A stretch of DNA of 64,000 nucleotides, taken from positions 11,434,441-11,498,440 of the forward strand of contig CM022677.1 of NCBI GenBank assembly GCA_012295275.1. The letters are read 5' to 3'. The stretch comes from Chrysomallon squamiferum. Its lineage: Eukaryota; Mollusca; Gastropoda; Neomphalida; Peltospiridae. The notes under the pieces were generated by a model. That model saw only the letters and a list, made by a program, of their open reading frames with translations. It was not told the DNA's origin and did no database searches. Numbering within the stretch: the first letter of the stretch is position 1; each line of letters starts with the position of its first letter. Below, one piece after another: positions 2,726 to 41,542 of this stretch. Made by a program: the position numbers and the translations under genes.

Positions 2726-3797
2726 GCGATTAAAAAAAGAACAAAAAAACCAACAACATTAAGCTTATCCAGCAGCGCAGTTTGTAATATGATATTTTAT
2801 ATTCATTTCAAATTCTTCACCTTTTCCTGTATTTTTTATTTAACATTGTCTTCGCCTCGGATACTTGTTTTACATGTTAGACTGTAAAACTGATGACGTA
2901 ATCGAGACCTCGCGTGACCTCTGTAGATAATTTATTTATTTATTTGTATGAAATTTTCTGAAACAATTTTACAGTCAACTTTGCAAAACTAATTTAAAAT
3001 AATTAATTTTAAAATCAACATGCAACACTGAAACATTAGGATATACACAGAAAGAATATAAACCATTAGGGAGATGCATAAAGATATAGATAGGACAATA
3101 ATAATAATAATAGTTTGGACTGTTCATAGAAAGAAGCAGGCGGCGACAGAAAAATTGTTAAAACTGTGTAGAATTTATGGATTGATAGACAAACACATGG
3201 ACAGATGTGGGTATATGTATTTGGCTGTTAGAAAAACATATATACATACACACAAGTTGTGTGTGAATGTAGGTGTGTACTGAAGGAAATTCGAATTTTT
3301 GTATGCGTTATCTGAGGCATGGGTATTTAGGAGAAATAGATGCAGACACAGATACAGACAGAAAGACAGACAGATGTGAATGTTGATACAGAGAGAATGA
3401 CAGACAGATGTGAATGTGAAAGGATGAGTTGGTACATACATGATATCTGTGAGAGACAGTTAATGTGTTTGTTATCAGAGAGAACTGTTGTATGTTAAAG
3501 ACAATGTCCTTGTTTATGTATAAATAAATACAAGTTCCAAGTGTTTTGATTCTTGTTTTGTTTTTAAAAAATGAACAGTAAGATATAAAAATATAATTAT
3601 TAATTGGATTATTTTAATGATTTATTCTTATATTATTGTCTTGATTTTGAATTGTTGTATTAACATTAAAAGATATTTGAAAAAAGCAGAAATTAATCAG
3701 TCTAAAACAATAATTTTAGCTCTATTAAAACCAGTATCTTTTTTAAAAACAGATTTAGAGTAATTTTTATTTTAAAGAAAATGAAAATGAAATGATG

Positions 3798-23852: not shown

Positions 23853-24896
23853 TTAATGAGACACTTGAGCCTGATGTCTACTGGAAAGAGATTTTATCCG
23901 AGGCAGAAATTTTGTTAATTTCAATCTCAAGTCGCCTCGTTTAGTCATATCCACTCGGTTTCTTTTCCTCAGTAATAAGTCGTTCACAGCACTAAATCCA
24001 CATTCCACTAAGTATGACGATGGGAATGGTAACAGTAGTTTTCTTGCCAAACTACTTGTATTTGGATATTTAGCTTGTGTTTCTTCACAGAGCCACATCA
24101 TTGTTCCTTTTATTTTGAACAGGGCTTTAATCGAGTCATCATTTTGTAATTCTGAAAGTTCTCCTTGATAATCCATGGTTAATCTGACAGATCCACTAGC
24201 AATGGCTGAGTCATCCAAGATGGATAATTAATTTCTTTCAAATCAGAAAATCTGAAGTTGAAATTGCTTACCATTATTTTTAAGTGCTCCACAATAACAA
24301 GACAAGTAGCAAATATATCTGCTAAATAACTGACAAGTGCTTTACCATCAACTGTCAGTAGCAGAGTCATATAAGGTTTGTCATCCAAGAACTCACTAAG
24401 AATAGCAAATAATTCCATGAATCTTTTCAGGCAATTCCACTTTGATAACCACCTTACATCAATATGAAGTAATAATCTTACATACTCTGCATTTTGATCC
24501 TTGCAAAATTGTTTGAAAAGACGCTCACATTTGGCATTAGCTTTTATAGTGTTGATGCATTTTATAACTGCATTCAATGTCTCCTTTAAAATAGAGGAAA
24601 CCTTTGGAAACTAAATTCTGTCTATGAATAATACAATGCACTAACAACATTTGGGGATTGTCATCTTTCAATAATTTTAAAACTCCATTTTTCTTGCCCA
24701 TCATTACTGGAGCACCGTCTGCAGCACAAGATATACAGTTTTCCATTGGTATCTGCTTATCATCTAAATATGTTTTTAATTTCTTATATGTATCAATTGC
24801 AATAGTGGTGGTTTCTAATGCTTCGCAAAATAGCATATCCTCAATAAATTCATGCACGATAAAATTAGTGGGTGAACACTTGACTAGATTACACAA
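23853..24896 (-). pseudogene. hAT transposase remnant (SCAND3/ZBED-like)
   Basis: Three overlapping minus-strand frames join into one degraded transposase. The N-terminal part (24,537-24,896) has CAADGAPVMMGKKNGV and VHCIIHRQNL, the RNase-H-like block with the D-G-A-P and H-C-x-x-H-R signatures. The middle (24,179-24,577) has HIDVRWLSKWNCLKRF. The C-terminal part (23,853-24,218) has LLPFPSSYLVECGFSAVNDL, the hAT dimerisation region. Two frameshifts separate the parts, and the BED-finger and N-terminal region are missing. It cannot encode an active transposase. Confidence 0.9.
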
Positions 24897-30633: not shown

Positions 30634-30672
30634 GTCTACGGCCACACCACGTTGAAAACACCGGTTCTCGTC
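30634..30672 (+). rRNA. 5S rRNA, 5' part (nucleotides 1-39), split by a LINE
   Basis: The 39 nt start GTCTACGGCCACACCACGTT and run to GGTTCTCGTC, matching the 5' end of metazoan 5S rRNA. The gene is then interrupted by a 5.37-kb retrotransposon and resumes at 36,064. The last 18 nt are the left copy of the target duplication. Confidence 0.95.
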
Positions 30673-30751
30673 TTTGGTTAGGGTGGCGTCGAGTGTGGAC
30701 GCGTTTCACATCGGTCCCCGCTTTGGAAAGTTTTATTTGAAATCAAAAATT

Positions 30752-31936
30752 ATGTCTTGGGCAGAAGAATCTGAAAAGTATGAAGAAAAGATCAAAGATA
30801 TGAATTTAAAAAAAGAAGTAATGAGAAAAAATGTTTTTAAAAAAGAATTCACTGTGATAGTAAATGTAGAAGATAACAAGAAAATTTCAGCAGGCGACAT
30901 GATAGATTTTGTAAGTGGCCAGGTGGGTGATGTGATAAAAGCGTGCGTACCGAAAGAATCCGACTCTTATGAAATAACACTAGAAGATATTATACAAGCG
31001 AGAATGATTACGGAAATTGATGAAACAGAATTGAAAGGTCTAACAATAAAGCCGAGGATTTTGAAATCTCAAACTGTAGTTGTTACCTTTTTGCACTTGC
31101 CTTTATACATAGAAGATGAAGAAATTGAAGAAAAATTGAAAGAAATGAAAATAGAAATTTTAACACCAATTTATAGGAGAGTATACAAAGGGACAAAAAT
31201 AGCAGATGGAACAAGATATGTGAGAGTGAAATTTCCACCCGAAATAAAAAGTTGACCATATTCAATGAAATTTCGGACTTTCGAAGGAATAAAATATTTT
31301 CGAGTTTTACATGACAATCAAATAAAAGTCTGTTACAACTGGATGGCGGATAATCATTTGTTGAAAGACTGTCCAAATATAACGTGTCATAACTGTAAAC
31401 AAAAAGGACATTTTGCTAGAAACTGCCCGAACATATTTCTGTGTGAAAAGTGTGGAAACAAAGAGGATGAATGTGAGTGTTGGACAGAGTATGACAGCGA
31501 CGAACAAAAAAACAGCGACAGTGACAGTGATGGTATGGTATGGAATAAAAAAAAGTACTACAGATAATAATAAAAATCAAAGGAGAAAAAAGAAAGAAAG
31601 TGAAGCACAATAATATCCAAAGGAGAGGATAAATACAACAAAGAAATGAAAATCAAAAAAAGGAAAAACAAAAATCGGAAAATGGAGAAACCAGAAAAAA
31701 AAAAAAAACCTGATGAAAACAAAACAGTGAAAAATACTAACAAGGAAGCTGAAACCATCGAAGCAGAGAAAAACAACGAACGAACGAGATTGATCAAGCG
31801 TCCGTCAGAAGAAAAACTGTGGAGCTTGGTAGAAAACAGAAAACAAAAACAGAGACAAGCAGCGCATGAAAAGTGTGAGAGAAAGTGTTGCCAGGGCGAT
31901 GAACGAGTATGGTGGGGGAATATAGACAAGATATAG
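30752..31936 (+). pseudogene. LINE ORF1 (zinc-knuckle nucleic-acid-binding protein)
   Basis: The first ATG in frame is at 30,752 (MSWAEESEKYEEK). The frame is open to a single TGA at 31,253-31,255 and resumes in the same frame at 31,265. Two zinc knuckles follow: CYNWMADNHLLKDC, and CHNCKQKGHFARNCPNIFLC followed by a further Cys cluster. An acidic Ser/Asp stretch ends at triple TAA codons (31,565-31,573), apparently an (ATA)n expansion. A Lys/Glu-rich tail at 31,646-31,936 is again in the same frame. It probably encodes an RNA-binding cofactor of retrotransposition. Confidence 0.8.
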
Positions 31937-31948
31937 AATATTTTAAAA

Positions 31949-34900
31949 ATGGATAATAGTTTTATAACTTTTCTAATTCTAATTATGATTTTGTCTATAA
32001 ATGTAAACGGACTGAGAGATATTGAGAAATTAAATTCAGTTTTTGCAACTATTAAAAGTAAACATGCAAATATTATTTTTCTACAGGAAACATTTTGGGA
32101 TAATGACTTCATTGAGAGATATAAACATTTATGGGAAGGAAATATATTTTATAATAATTGTCCAAATAAAAAAAGAAGGGGTGTAGCAATACTGGTATCA
32201 AAAGAATGTCCTTGTAAGTTTACATTTAATGGTTGCGACACTGAAGGCAGGATTTTAAAAATTAATACTAAAATAGATGAAGAAGAATACAGTTTTATAA
32301 ATGTATATGCACCAAATAATATTGAAGAAAGAATTTTATTTTTTAAAGGATTATGTAAATTTGTGGATTTATAAAATAGAATAATGGCAGGAGATTTTAA
32401 TGAAATTTTAGATCCTAATTTAGATATAGGCATTAATAATAAAACTTTCAATATGAAAAGTAGTAATGAATTACAGTCAGTTATTTTTAATTATAATTTA
32501 GTTGATATTTGGCGACACAGAAATCCAGATAAAAGGCAATTTACTAGATCTCAAATAGTTGAAAAAACTATAAAACAGTCAAGAATTGATTTATTCTTAA
32601 TTTCTAGAAATTTATTACAGTTTATAAGTAATGTATACATATCCTATACCTCGGTTAGTGATCACAATTTTTTATCACTTAAAATAGATTTTTCTCATGT
32701 AGAGAGAGGTCAAGGTATTTGGATCTTTAATAATGAATTGTTGAAAGATGAAAGTTTTTGTAAAGCTATTATTGAAGTTATTAATAATGTTTCTGAGTGT
32801 CCTTTGTTACAGACTGAACCTAGTGTTTGGTGGGACAACTTAAAATATAAAATGAAAATGTGCAAGAAATTTTGCAATAAAAAAGAGAAAATCAGATAAC
32901 GAAAAATATTATAATATACAAAATGCTTTGAAACGAGAATATGCTAAACTAGCTGTAAATAAGCATCATGATTTGAGTAACACAAATTTTAGAAGAAAAA
33001 TTAAAATTAATTGAGAGAATTAAATGTAATGGTGCTATTTTAAGATCTAAAGCTCATTGGAATCTAGATATGGATAGAAATACCACATTTTTTCTCAGTT
33101 TAGAAAAATCAAAACAAGAATCAAATTCTATTAAAGAGCTAAAAACAGTAAATGGATTAACAAGAAAAACGGAAGATATATTACAATATGCTTATGACTT
33201 TTATTCAAAATTATTTACACAAGAAAAAATGTAGATATTATTAAACAGGAAGAAATAATAAATTTAATATCAAATAAACTAAAGGAATCTGAAAGTGAAA
33301 ACTGTGAGAAAGACATTACAATTGAAGAATTAACTGAAGCTTTAAAAGAAATGAATAGAAATAAATCACCTGGTTTGGATGGTCTAACAGTAGAATTTTA
33401 TGTTAAATTCTGGGAAAATTTTAAAAATTTCTTTCATAAAGTAGTTATGTCAATTCAGAAAGAAGAAATGTTGTCACGTAGTATGAAAAAAAAAGGAGTA
33501 ATTAGTTTATTTTACAAGAAAAAAAGGAGATAAAGCAGACCTAAAAAATTTCAGACCTATCAGCCTTTTAAATGTAGATTATAAAATTATTGCTAAAGTT
33601 CTTGCAAATCATCTTAAACAAGTAATGTCAACTATTATTTCATCAGAACAAACCTGTTGTGTAAAAGGAAGAGATGTTGCTGACAATATTATGTCAGTAA
33701 GAGATATTATAGATATTGTCGAGTTAAATAATACAGAAGGGTATAAAGTTAAAATAGATCAAGAGAAAAAGCTTTTGATACAGTATCACAGTTTTATTTT
33801 AAAAGTTTTGAAAAAATTCAATTTTGGTGATAATTTTATAAAGTGGATTAAAATACTATATAATAATATAAAAAAGTTGTGTAAAAATTAATGGACATTT
33901 AACACCTTTTTTCAATATTACAAGAGGGGTTAGACAAGGATGTCCAATATCAATGATGCTTTATGTTATTGTAGCTGAACCCTTAAATAAATTAAATTAA
34001 AAAAAGACATAGCATGAATGGAATTAGAATAACAAATGAACTTAATTCTTTATTATTTCAGCATGTAGATGATACTACAGTAACTGTCTGCGATGCTCAG
34101 TCAGTAGAATCTGTTTTAATGCAATAAATATGTATTGTAGTGCTACAGGGGCAAAAGTCAATGTAGATAAGTCAGAAGTACTTTATCTTGGTAAAACCAT
34201 GATTGAAAACTTATCTTTTAACATTCCAATATCAATAAATAAAAACTATGTTAAAATTCTAGGTATATATTTAGGACCAAATAAACCATTATGTGAAAGA
34301 TTGAACTGGAAAAATAAATTAGCTAAAATGTCTAATTTAATTAACTTATGGAGTCAAAGGAAACTTACTTTACATGGAAAAGCTGAAGTATGGAATACTT
34401 TATTAACATCTAGACTGTGGTATATCATTAGCACAATAAATGTACCAAATTGGGTAGAAAATGAAATTCATAAATTATTTTGTAAATTTATGTGGGAAGG
34501 AAAAACGCATTTAATAAAATATTCAACAATAATTGGAAATAAAATGTCGGGTGGACTAAATATTCAAGATATTTCATTAAAGAAAATGACTTTTCGTATA
34601 AAAATGTTAAAGAAATATTTTGATAATAATTTTAAAAATGTGTGGAAATATACAATGTCAATATTTCTTGAAAAATATATGAATATGAATCTAAATTATG
34701 ACATTTTTAAAATAGTATACAGTAAAGAAGCTTTAAAAGTTATCAATCCTTTTTATGCTGAAATGTTATCAGCTTGGGACTATGTTAATAATGGAGAACG
34801 TAATTTCCCACTTGATACAGACGAAATATTGTCTCAGCCACTTTTTCAAAATCCATTTATTAAATATAAAAACAAATTATTATTATTTAGTTCTTTTATA

Positions 34901-35822
34901 AAAAGTGGAATAGTCAAAGTGGCTGATATTGCATATGAAGTAATATCAGGTTTTCTTCCTTTTACAGCTATTGTAGAAATTATTCATGAAAAATCTCCAG
35001 AATTATCCAAAAACCAAATTTATATAGCTTACAATGTTATTAAGAAATCACTTCCAGATGAATGGAAAAGTTCTATTAACAGAAATGCTAAAAAATTAAC
35101 ATCTAATAAAGATTTATTTTTGTTTCAGAATAATGAAATGATAAATGTCAGTAAATTTACAGTTAAAATAATTTATTCTATTTTAATTTTAAAAAACTTT
35201 AAAGCACCAAGTTGTGAAGAAAAATGGAATGAGCTTGGTTTTAATATATTCTGGAGACCAGTTTGGAAATGGATACACTATAGTGATAAATTTACTGAAT
35301 TTATAGACTTAGATTTTAGAACAGTTCATCATATAATATATACATATAGTAAATTATATAAATATGGCAAAATCTCATCTAGTGTATGTCCAGTCTGTTT
35401 GAAGGATGATGAAGATTTGTGCCATTTATTTTTGTATTGTGAAGAATTGAAGGAATTAATATCAATCTTTCATGAAATATGTATTTATATATTTAAGAAA
35501 ACAGGGTTTTCTCTAGAACAATTAAAAAGATTATTAATATTTGGATGAAAATAGTACCATAGAATTTATTAATATTATTCTTTCAATTTATAGAATATCA
35601 GTGTTCAAAAGGCGTGTAATAGCTCAAATGAAAGGAACAAATATCAATATAATACATTTTTTTAGAAATTATATGTATCAGTGCTTTAAAATCATTCTAA
35701 ATCAAAATCGTATTCAAAACAAACTTTCAATTTTTATTAACAAATATGTTAAGAACAATATTTTCCTAGAACTAAAAGATGACATACTTATTTTCAAATA
35801 TCCTTTGGAAAGCCACAAATAA
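31949..35822 (+). pseudogene. LINE ORF2 (endonuclease and reverse transcriptase)
   Basis: The start at 31,949 gives an APE-type endonuclease with SINVNGLRD, IIFLQETFW, NVYAPNN, MAGDFNEILD, SRIDLFLISRN and SDHNFLSL. One in-frame stop at 32,372-32,374 interrupts it. The reverse transcriptase has MNRNKSPGLDGL, NFRPISLLNVDYKIIAK, RGVRQGCPISMMLYV and the catalytic V-D-D in LFQHVDDTTV, where most relatives have A-D-D. A compensated double indel at about 33,765-33,790 scrambles the first catalytic motif region. The thumb and C-terminus are one long open frame (34,130-35,548) with CPVCLKDDEDLCHLFLYC, then a frameshift into 35,541-35,822. The total of about 1,290 codons is near full length for the clade. 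Confidence 0.85.
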
Positions 35823-36063
35823 TCAATATAGATATATCATGGAAATGGATAAAAGAATTAATACTATAAACTACTGTAAATTATATATGAATATTACGAA
35901 TAAATAAGTATGCGTGCACGTGAGTGTGACTGAGTGTGTGAGAGGAAACAGTTTTTATTATAGTTATTTACAGTTTTAATGTTATTTTAATTGTGTACAA
36001 CTGTTTATTATATTAATAAAGATAAAAAAAAAAAAAAAAAAACCCAAAAGACCAGTTCTCGTC

Positions 36064-36142
36064 CGATCACCGAAGTTAAGCAACGCAGGGCTCGGACAGT
36101 ACTTGGATGGGTGACCGCCTGGGAACACCGAGTGCCGTAGAC
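36064..36142 (+). rRNA. 5S rRNA, 3' part (nucleotide 40 to end)
   Basis: After the right target duplication the 5S sequence resumes with CGATCACCGAAGTTAAGC and ends GAGTGCCGTAGAC. The internal control region (CTTGGATGGGTGACCGCC) is intact. The two parts sum to 118 nt, almost exactly a 5S gene. Downstream T-runs (TCTTTCTT from 36,149) could terminate RNA polymerase III. As split here it cannot yield 5S rRNA, though the internal promoter might still be bound. Confidence 0.95.
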
Positions 36143-39790: not shown

Positions 39791-40052
39791 AAAACATGGC
39801 CACCTCAGCAGAAGTTTCAAGTTGGCAGACAGGGAAAACACTAACGGAGTGTATTGAACACGTTTTTCATACGAGAACAGACAGCGACGTCAGATTTATT
39901 GTTGGGGAAGAAGAAAAAATTGTAGAAGCACATCGCTTCATCCTGATGATCAGAAGCGATGTCTTCCACAAAATGATTATGGGAGAACTTCGCGAACAAA
40001 ACAGCATCATCTTGCCTGATGTTCAGGCAGATATTTTTACCGAGTTTTTAAA
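39791..40052 (+). CDS. BTB/POZ-BACK-PHR protein, exon 1 (BTB domain)
   Basis: The acceptor GTTTTAG at 39,784-39,790 precedes AAAAC and ATG at 39,796; the exon ends at donor AA|GTATGT (phase 2). It encodes WQTGKTLTECIEHVFHTR, then SDVRFIVGEEE, VEAHRFILMIRSDVFHKMI and LPDVQADIFTEFLK, the first part of a BTB domain. The A-H-R-F...S-x-V-F core corresponds to the dimerisation and cullin-3-binding surface of BTBD1/2/3/6-type proteins. These proteins are usually substrate adaptors of cullin-3 ubiquitin ligases. The family is often strongly expanded in molluscs (recollection). Confidence 0.85.
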
Positions 40053-40123
40053 GTATGTTAACAAACTCATACACACACGCACACGCACACAGCCACACAC
40101 AGAGACACAGACACAAACACACA

Positions 40124-40171
<48 letters not shown>

Positions 40172-40374
40172 ACACACACACACACAAACACACAGACACA
40201 CACACACACACACACAGACACACACAGGTACGAACATAGTGAGTAACGAAACATACAAACCGACACGAACGTTGATAACAATACAGTTTTTGTTAGTAAT
40301 ATAATTATTTTCTAATTGAATAATCTCACATAATTATCTCTCGTTTGAAGTCTTACTCTACTTCTTTTACACAG
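40053..40374 (+). repeat. BTB gene intron with (CA)n microsatellite
   Basis: The 322-bp intron holds an impure CA tract from about 40,068 to 40,226, then AT-rich sequence to the acceptor CTTTTACACAG. Confidence 0.9.
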
Positions 40375-41542
40375 ATATCTTTACACGGATGACGTCGTCC
40401 TAACAGGCGACAACGTCACCGGTCTGCTGTATCTATCGAGGAAGTACATCGTCACGACACTGGAAGAACAGTGCGTGAAATATTTGGAGTCGTCGTTGTC
40501 GTCACGGAATGCGTGCGTCGTGCTGGAACAAGCTCACCTGTTTGATGAACATGATCTAAGGAAAAAACTCTGGACTTCATTTTGAAAAATGGCGACGAAG
40601 TTCTGAAGTCAGATGAAGTCACCGATCTTTGTCACGAATGTCTGGTTGAGATCGTACGATCAGACGAACTGACAGCAGACGAGAAAAATGTTTTTGAAGC
40701 CGCTGTGAAGTGGGCTGACAGCGCGTGCAGGAAGCAAGGGAGACAGACGAATGAAAAAACATGCGCGAAGCACTGGGAGAGGTCGTGAAGCACGTGCGTT
40801 ATCCATTACTCGATCAGACGTATTTTGTAAAACACGTGACACCCACTCACATACTCACTGACACAGAAGAAAACAAGATTTTGAGACACCTGGTGAGCAG
40901 TGATGAAGATGTTTCACCTTTCAACTCAAACAAGAGAACTGCAATGATTCCTAAAACACAGATTACAATAAACAGGTTTGGTTCGTATGGTTATACTGGT
41001 TTTATGTTTGGTTACTTGACATGTTCTGGTCTGAAGAAGATGAATCCATTACTTTCTCTGTCAACAAAAACGCTTTACTTCGCGGATTTCAGTTGTACGG
41101 TTACAACCAACCACGAAACTACGACGTCAGCGCCTTCGTCACTGACACAAGAACAGACGAAATACTGGACGGGTCTACACTGACACAGAGATATGAACAC
41201 GTCGTGTCTGACGTGTATGACGTCGTGTTCAGACGTCCAGTGAAGATTACTAAAGACACTGAGTACAGCTTGTTTGTTAATGTTAAGGGAGGAGACTCAT
41301 GGTGTGGACATGAAGGTAAATCAGAAATTGTTGTAGACTCTTTTGTTTGTAGATTTTCTGAGTCACACAAATCTAAACACAGTGACAGACAACTTCGTAC
41401 ACATGTGTGTGACAGACGGACAAATACCTGCTTTGTTATTTTTAGTGTAAAAAACAACATCGTTCAAACACTGTCACTTTTAGTCATCACTGGCCTAATA
41501 TTTGTATTTATTTATTTATTTGTTTACTTATTGATTTATTGA
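40375..41542 (+). CDS. BTB/POZ-BACK-PHR protein, exon 2, three frameshifts
   Basis: The exon continues the BTB domain (YLYTDDVVLTGDNVTGLLYL, then SRKYIVTTLEEQCVKYLESS) and the BACK domain (LTADEKNVFEAAVKWADSAC; VRYPLLDQTYFVKHVTP). It then encodes a PHR domain (ITINRFGSYGYTGFMF; MFWSEEDESITFSVNKNALL; PVKITKDTEYSLFVNVKGGD). The frame drops by one base three times: at the A-run 40,562-40,567, the A-run 40,754-40,759 and near 41,015-41,018. Adding one base at each site would give continuous homology, so these are either homopolymer assembly errors or a young pseudogene. The last 60 residues after CRFSES are low-complexity and may be beyond the natural end. Confidence 0.8.

Follow-up and report, generated by a model that had tools for sequence, protein, structure and literature searches.

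Mutsu belongs to the Tx1 clade of long interspersed nuclear elements (LINEs), which are retrotransposons without long terminal repeats (non-LTR retrotransposons). In zebrafish it has been described as a LINE of ~5.5 kb with two open reading frames (ORFs) that resides in 5S rRNA genes (PMC11202950, PMC3706591). The present work concerns a comparable case in the gastropod Chrysomallon squamiferum, found in a stretch of 64,000 nucleotides (contig CM022677.1 of assembly GCA_012295275.1, positions 11,434,441 to 11,498,440 of the forward strand; hereafter the window), where a 5S rRNA gene is interrupted after nucleotide (nt) 39 by a 5.37-kb non-LTR retrotransposon (window positions 30634-36142). The insert is very probably a dead copy of a family with an apurinic/apyrimidinic (APE)-type endonuclease, probably of the Tx1 clade, that inserts inside genes transcribed by RNA polymerase III (Pol III). 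Rather than a Mutsu specific for 5S, it is a LINE that targets the bodies of tRNA genes, and 5S genes are a minority target of the same lineage.

The likeness to Mutsu lies in the similar size, the two ORFs and the position inside a 5S gene; the difference, as judged from published descriptions only, is that 5S genes are here the minority target, since most of the copies that were tabulated stand in tRNA or tRNA-like genes. Dewa, also of zebrafish, is likewise a tRNA-associated LINE but lies in the tRNA-Leu spacer, whereas the present family is found inside tRNA genes of ten isotypes (PMC3706591). Keno shares the use of a small-RNA gene site and an APE endonuclease, and differs in its target, the U2 small nuclear RNA (snRNA) gene (PMC4640811). 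TRE5-A of Dictyostelium uses both tRNA and 5S genes, like the window family, but it and the other dictyostelid non-LTR elements, of clade L1, insert 2-150 bp beside the genes and not inside them (PMC5911963); in a review table of retrotransposons adjacent to tRNA genes, the non-LTR entries are dictyostelid only and all lie beside genes (PMC5911963). Dada elements are likewise site-specific inside tRNA, snRNA or 5S genes (PMC3706591), but they are DDE DNA transposons, and their families keep mainly, not strictly, to one gene type, whereas the window family spans tRNA and 5S genes. Finally, Jockey-like LINEs of Tribolium freemani also occur in 5S arrays, but these belong to another clade and the arrays are satellite-linked (PMC11202950). 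All these comparisons follow the accessible portions of the cited sources. The literature searched, in which subscription papers are thinly covered, yielded no report of a LINE lodged within tRNA genes of more than one isotype.

The interrupted 5S gene and its insert

The 5' half of the 5S gene (nt 1-39) occupies positions 30634-30672 and the 3' half (nt 40-118) positions 36064-36142, both on the forward strand, as are all parts of the element given below. Both halves are recognized by their sequence and by comparison with locus L093, an uninterrupted 5S gene on the same chromosome that is identical to the two window halves and has the same 40 upstream bases; the 3' half is further identified by Rfam, whose sole gathering match within the window is 5S at 36044-36133 (50.8 bits, E 1.2e-7). 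The target-site duplication consists of an upstream copy at 30655-30672 (5S nt 22-39), which reads AAAACACCGGTTCTCGTC, and a downstream copy at 36046-36063, which reads AAAAGACCAGTTCTCGTC and is identical to the former at 16 of 18 positions; three C (36043-36045) stand between the poly-A and the downstream copy. The split halves and the duplication bear out the first-pass annotation, which had placed a near-full-length LINE precisely within a 5S gene and had recognized the 18-bp junction repeats as 5S sequence, and the insertion site that it gave, after nt 39, is confirmed in three copies, two of which represent one segmental duplication. Eight 5S loci were compared: in addition to L093, four are uninterrupted genes with few changes (L095, L096, L099 and L100), two have damaged 3' halves (L094 and L097) and one is of another 5S type (L098). 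A short interspersed element derived from 5S was considered and rejected, because the two halves form a true 5S gene and an identical uninterrupted gene exists.

The retrotransposon copy extends from 30673 to 36042 and ends in a poly-A run (36024-36042). ORF1 (30752-31933) carries a CCHC zinc knuckle (PF00098, E 7.6e-7), a feature that is typical of the Tx1 clade and not unique to it, and has 13 relatives, among which P0121 and P0123 are 63% identical. It contains an in-frame stop at 31253-31255 and probably further stops at about 31565-31603; the stretch past 31604 was counted as ORF1 by eye, since it resembles the tail of P0121. ORF2 comprises an APE-type endonuclease part (31949-32896), with an in-frame stop at 32372-32374, a reverse transcriptase (RT) part (32892-34121), whose frame is broken by several frame changes, and a C-terminal part (34115-35904), which has a CCHC motif (CPVC...H....C) and frame changes toward its end, the last of which may fall past the end of the ORF. 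When ORF2 is pieced together by hand, across about ten frame changes, the read-through protein matches the endonuclease family PF03372 (E 6.4e-8) and the RT family PF00078 (E 9.5e-23), and a zf-RVT match at its C-terminus is weak (0.0057, below the family cut-off).

The layout given by the first-pass annotation, in which an ORF1 with a zinc knuckle is followed by APE endonuclease, RT, C-terminal CCHC motif and poly-A, is borne out. The family shows the features of APE-type LINEs: APE and RT domains in ORF2, a poly-A or simple tail, target duplications of variable length, and 5' truncation. The window copy is not intact: apart from in-frame stops, of which there are two or more, and some ten frame changes, its RT motif reads HVDD where that of P0001, the best protein relative, reads HADD. 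To judge from its reading frames, it is a dead element. It may also be a mosaic, because its identity to the 5S copy at 2.40 Mb is 98% in the 3' part and 94% in the 5' part.

Targets of the family and kinship of its copies

A mollusc host is supported by an HSP70 of this genome, which is 85% identical to one of Gigantopelta aegis across 96% of its length; no identity is higher among the 120 matches listed of 7,992 scored, although longer multi-copy proteins stand above it by score. COX1 gave no match in the genome. The genome (22 contigs, 404,604,130 bases) was searched for copies of the family. Their ends were located with the ORF2 C-terminus, which gave 95 matches, with the 5' end, which gave 43, with the 3' end, for which the best 40 of 74 candidates were scored, and with a pattern for the 3' end, which had 39 matches and none in the control; at three predicted 5' ends (L101-L103) no element was present. 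The resulting table, which is partial and does not hold every family copy, has 47 distinct 3' ends, of which 40 come from the 3'-end search, three from fetched loci and four from the pattern. Two ends at assembly gaps and two without the element's own 3' end were set aside, and 43 are readable.

In 22 of the 43 readable junctions the element adjoins the 3' half of a tRNA, with a fold score of 18-20 of 20 (17 of them score 20); among 4,000 random window positions the 99.9th percentile of this score was 18 and the maximum 19. Seven more are tRNA-like on weaker evidence (fold scores 12-17: L017, L020, L029, L072, L073, L076 and L089), these calls being based, in part by eye, on a B-box, on the 5' half of a tRNA or on a tRNA restored by joining the flanks. 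Four junctions sit within 5S genes. Therefore, tRNA or 5S genes hold 26 of the 43 by the strict count and 33 of the 43 by the wider count. A B-box motif lies 29-34 nt past the poly-A in 25 of the 47 flanks, and at 37 nt in one more, while in the control 31 of 9,129 window positions had it anywhere in the wider range of 15-45. Ten isotypes, assigned by anticodon or by the joined tRNA, are represented among the targets: Ile, Gly, Pro, Lys, Asn, Cys, Val, Phe, Glu and Trp. When the flanks of 11 hand-chosen sites were joined, a complete tRNA was restored in eight (Gly, Asn, Val, Glu, Trp, Val, Lys and Phe); in the other three (C6:4.409, C7:28.6977 and C7:28.6738) ARAGORN found no tRNA.

Some individual loci deserve mention. 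At L073 (C10:3965349) two poly-A runs enclose, as read by eye, a short piece like the 3' half of tRNA-Lys, with half of a tRNA-Gly gene next to it; this is likely a 3' transduction, as would be expected if the parent copy sat in a tRNA-Lys-like gene. At C2:8.217 the 5' flank resembles tRNA-Ala and the 3' flank tRNA-Pro (by eye). A tRNA-like repeat with 37 pattern matches on C10 and C12, and none on other contigs, occurs in many inverted pairs ~460 bp apart, and some of its units are targeted by the LINE. At C3:16.499-16.526 Mb, tRNA genes (tRNA-Lys where read) lie ~1.24 kb apart, near three 5S genes and several LINE copies.

Five copies in 5S genes were seen, and they are located on one chromosome (C13); the 2.43-Mb copy was seen from its 5' side only, and the 5' sides of the copies at 0.758 and 14.65 Mb run into assembly gaps. 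The 5S genes themselves, counted by a 5'-half pattern only (39 matches, 0 in the control), are distributed over C13 (15), C15 (18), C3 (3) and C1, C4 and C7 (one each). Thirteen of the 18 matches on C15 are spaced ~2.6 kb apart, too close for a full-length copy to lie between neighbors, and the element's 5' end adjoins three of the 15 on C13 (2.40, 2.43 and 11.47 Mb). Two types of 5S gene can be distinguished, one forming the tandem array of C15 (~2.6-kb unit) and the other the dispersed genes of C13, which share an upstream stretch.

The first-pass annotation had supposed an element specific for 5S genes, a claim that the tabulated flanks contradict, as most of these copies stand in tRNA or tRNA-like genes and only four of 43 in 5S genes. 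It could still be argued that a 5S-specific, Mutsu-type element exists and that the tRNA copies belong to a different family, given that five copies lie in 5S genes, three of them exactly after nt 39, and that TTTGGTTAGGG is common to the 5' ends of the 5S copies in the three cases where this end can be read, while the tRNA copies have GACTTCCGGTTATGG. Against this, the last 2 kb of many tRNA copies match the window copy at 94-97% (79-93% in older copies), and over the ORF2 C-terminus the copy at C15:23.083 (tRNA-Gly) is 97% and that at C9:24.255 (tRNA-Glu) 96% identical to it. A tree built from the 3' region of 29 copies, with one whose target is unclear as the root, nests the 5S copies among tRNA copies: its deep branches are tRNA-Lys, tRNA-Asn, unclear and off-target copies, the young ones are mostly tRNA copies, and the 5S copies fall between. 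A single 5S clade is not rejected by the approximately unbiased (AU) test on the 3' region (p-AU 0.21), but it is rejected on the first 900 bp (p-AU 0.0001; 22 copies, with three 5S rows). Furthermore, the 5S copy at 14.65 Mb ends, on its 3' side, in the sequence that the main tRNA copies carry there. A separate 5S-specific family is, on these grounds, highly improbable.

A related question is whether all the C13 copies stem from one chance insertion that was spread by segmental duplication or gene conversion. The copies at 2.40 and 2.43 Mb are indeed a segmental duplication, with 1,488 bp of upstream flank in common at 97.7%, and four 5S copies resemble one another at 86-95% in their downstream flanks. 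However, the upstream flank of the window copy matches those two over only 66 bp beside simple repeats, the intact 5S unit L093 shares flanks too, the 14.65-Mb junction differs, and the rejection of one 5S clade on the 5' region speaks against a common origin; we consider a single event unlikely, though a good deal less so than a separate 5S family. The independent 5S insertions are probably two or more, and their number is not firm because the C13 units share flanks.

The insertion point and how it may be chosen

In the 22 strong tRNA cases, the first base past the poly-A, placed by its spacing from the B-box, is nt 22 in 11, nt 23 in six and nt 24 in three; the junction thus lies at nt 22-24 in 20 of 22, with two outliers. 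These positions are good to within one or two bases, because A residues of the target merge with the poly-A, and the Glu and Gly junctions, counted as 23, align to nt 22 by the anticodon stem in three of four. The duplication of the window 5S gene begins at nt 22, the same number as the commonest tRNA junction. In contrast to this fixed 3' side, the 5' junction is variable: exact duplications range from none to 89 bp, and 5'-truncated copies are present. Both flanks are available at 29 sites, and in 11 of these at least 5 bp are duplicated exactly (10 bp in Glu, 13 in Trp, 89 in Val and 14 in one 5S copy, for example), and two Val loci, with 13- and 16-bp duplications, resemble duplicates of one event. 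At the Val site with the 89-bp duplication a complete tRNA-Val stands upstream of the insert.

It is well known that LINEs integrate by target-primed reverse transcription, and a fixed 3' junction combined with a variable 5' junction would fit this process starting from a nick in the bottom strand. The endonuclease would nick the bottom strand at the fixed junction point, the poly-A RNA would be reverse transcribed from the nick, and the second strand would be cut at a variable distance downstream, so that, where the duplication is long, an entire tRNA gene could be preserved on the upstream side.

The constancy of the junction bears on whether targets are chosen at all. If insertion were near-random and copies survived chiefly in multicopy tRNA and 5S clusters, the additional tRNA genes near several target sites and the clustering of tRNA genes (seen in the best 63 of 16,305 candidates) would be accounted for, but not the single place of the junction within the gene, which is kept even in copies at least 99% identical to each other. 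Survival of this kind is therefore scarcely credible as the explanation.

As to how the point is chosen, the endonuclease alone might recognize the GG(T)TA of the tRNA D-loop, the GTTG|A of 5S being a look-alike, and to this we would give slightly less than an even chance. It agrees with the near base-level precision and with the presence of G-G-T-(T)-A before the junction in 10 of 11 aligned tRNA sites (Phe has GGGA; the left halves of Ile and Cys were entered by hand), and in the accessible text of one source fixed-site LINEs inside genes are described as reading DNA directly (PMC3706591). A motif so short, however, must be common in the genome. Moreover, a weight matrix built from the 11 tRNA sites places the actual 5S site no higher than 15th of 340, and better matches nearby are unused, including the top one, GTTA, 8 bp upstream of the gene. 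Sequence alone thus does not explain the 5S site, and its likeness to the tRNA D-loop was rejected as a full explanation.

The weakness of that match favors another proposal, namely that the Pol III complex tethers the element's proteins, as has been proposed for TRE5-A, and that the endonuclease then cuts ~21 nt into the gene. The same coordinate is used in two gene types with different promoters and in ten isotypes, the junctions scatter by a few nucleotides, one stray copy lies ~47 bp upstream of a tRNA-Ser, and TRE5-A itself is described as using tRNA and 5S genes. On the other hand, TRE5-A and the other non-LTR elements tabulated in the available part of the review insert beside genes, within a window, and not inside them, whereas the tRNA and 5S junctions described here are inside genes, with one stray copy beside tRNA-Ser; in addition, tRNA-like repeats and degenerate tRNAs are also hit. 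Guidance of this kind is a tentative explanation, which also falls somewhat short of an even chance. The fuller proposition, that an animal LINE reads position in the Pol III unit, cuts ~21 nt into tRNA and 5S genes under the guidance of Pol III and can leave the tRNA intact, is offered with considerable reserve.

Several observations weigh against the general reading of a family that inserts inside Pol III genes. The target is unclear in four of the 43 readable junctions (L028, L031, L078 and L092) and is neither tRNA nor 5S in six (L014, L018, L034, L038, L071 and L091), L038 being the stray near tRNA-Ser, to which it is opposite in orientation. Automatic joining of the 29 sites gave a tRNA in 10 only, four of these neighboring or doubtful, and 18 of the 29, the window's imperfect duplication included, lack an exact duplication of at least 5 bp. 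The counts are partial, as 40 of 74 candidates were scored and these were picked by likeness to the window copy; some target loci are duplicates, which means fewer independent insertion events. The low matrix rank of the 5S site must be added to these points.

Clade, neighboring features and significance

The Mutsu assignment of the first-pass annotation held in part: the layout is L1/Tx1-like, while 5S specificity is not supported, and with it falls membership of the 5S-specific Mutsu group. Placement in the Tx1 clade remains plausible from sequence comparison, where it rests on two observations. Compared with solved structures, the endonuclease finds its best match, 85.5 bits, in a single hybrid protein, 2v0r 'LTX', which we take to be the L1 endonuclease carrying the Tx1L hairpin; native L1 endonuclease (1vyb) gives 76.2 bits and the full-length L1 ORF2 chains 78-79.7. 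The second is a distant LINE relative (L108:1-3521) inserted in a U2 snRNA gene, on a contaminant contig of a metagenome-assembled genome of a bacterial symbiont from Taylorina, presumably a lucinid bivalve. Its A-rich tail ends at 3521 and is followed by U2 from about nt 33 (read by eye against the U2 sequence), and Rfam finds a full-length U2 from 3497. Its identity to P0001, to which the window element is most closely related, is 35%, and, U2 being the target of Keno, it fits a Tx1 setting without proving it.

P0001 is 66% identical over the searched region, and the best 120 of 631 protein relatives include sequences from Patella caerulea (42%), Holothuria leucospilota and Oculina patagonica. 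At L107, a 66% relative, the contig ends inside the element and Rfam found neither tRNA nor 5S; L106 is a 28% match. In an ORF2 tree of 58 proteins (FastTree), a set that includes no named Tx1 reference, L108 appears only as a distant branch, and long branches are flagged. L1-Tx1 elements have been recorded in 35 mollusc species, according to the part of the survey available (PMC10294476), and the mere presence of Tx1 in a mollusc is no novelty.

Elsewhere in the window, a gene for a BTB-BACK-PHR protein lies at 39796-41539, with exons across several frames, and a weak match to a hAT transposase dimerization domain, below the family cut-off, is found at 23856-24218 on the reverse strand.

Identity between the 5' parts of copies from separate tRNA or tRNA-like loci reaches 99.9%, and such near-identical copies suggest recent activity of the family. 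It is an unusual case of a parasite homing to the bodies of small-RNA genes. The target-specific LINEs described in the accessible sources keep to one gene or repeat, TRE5-A excepted. With a fixed site in tRNA genes of ten isotypes and in 5S genes, the choice made by an endonuclease and guidance by Pol III can be compared in one natural system.

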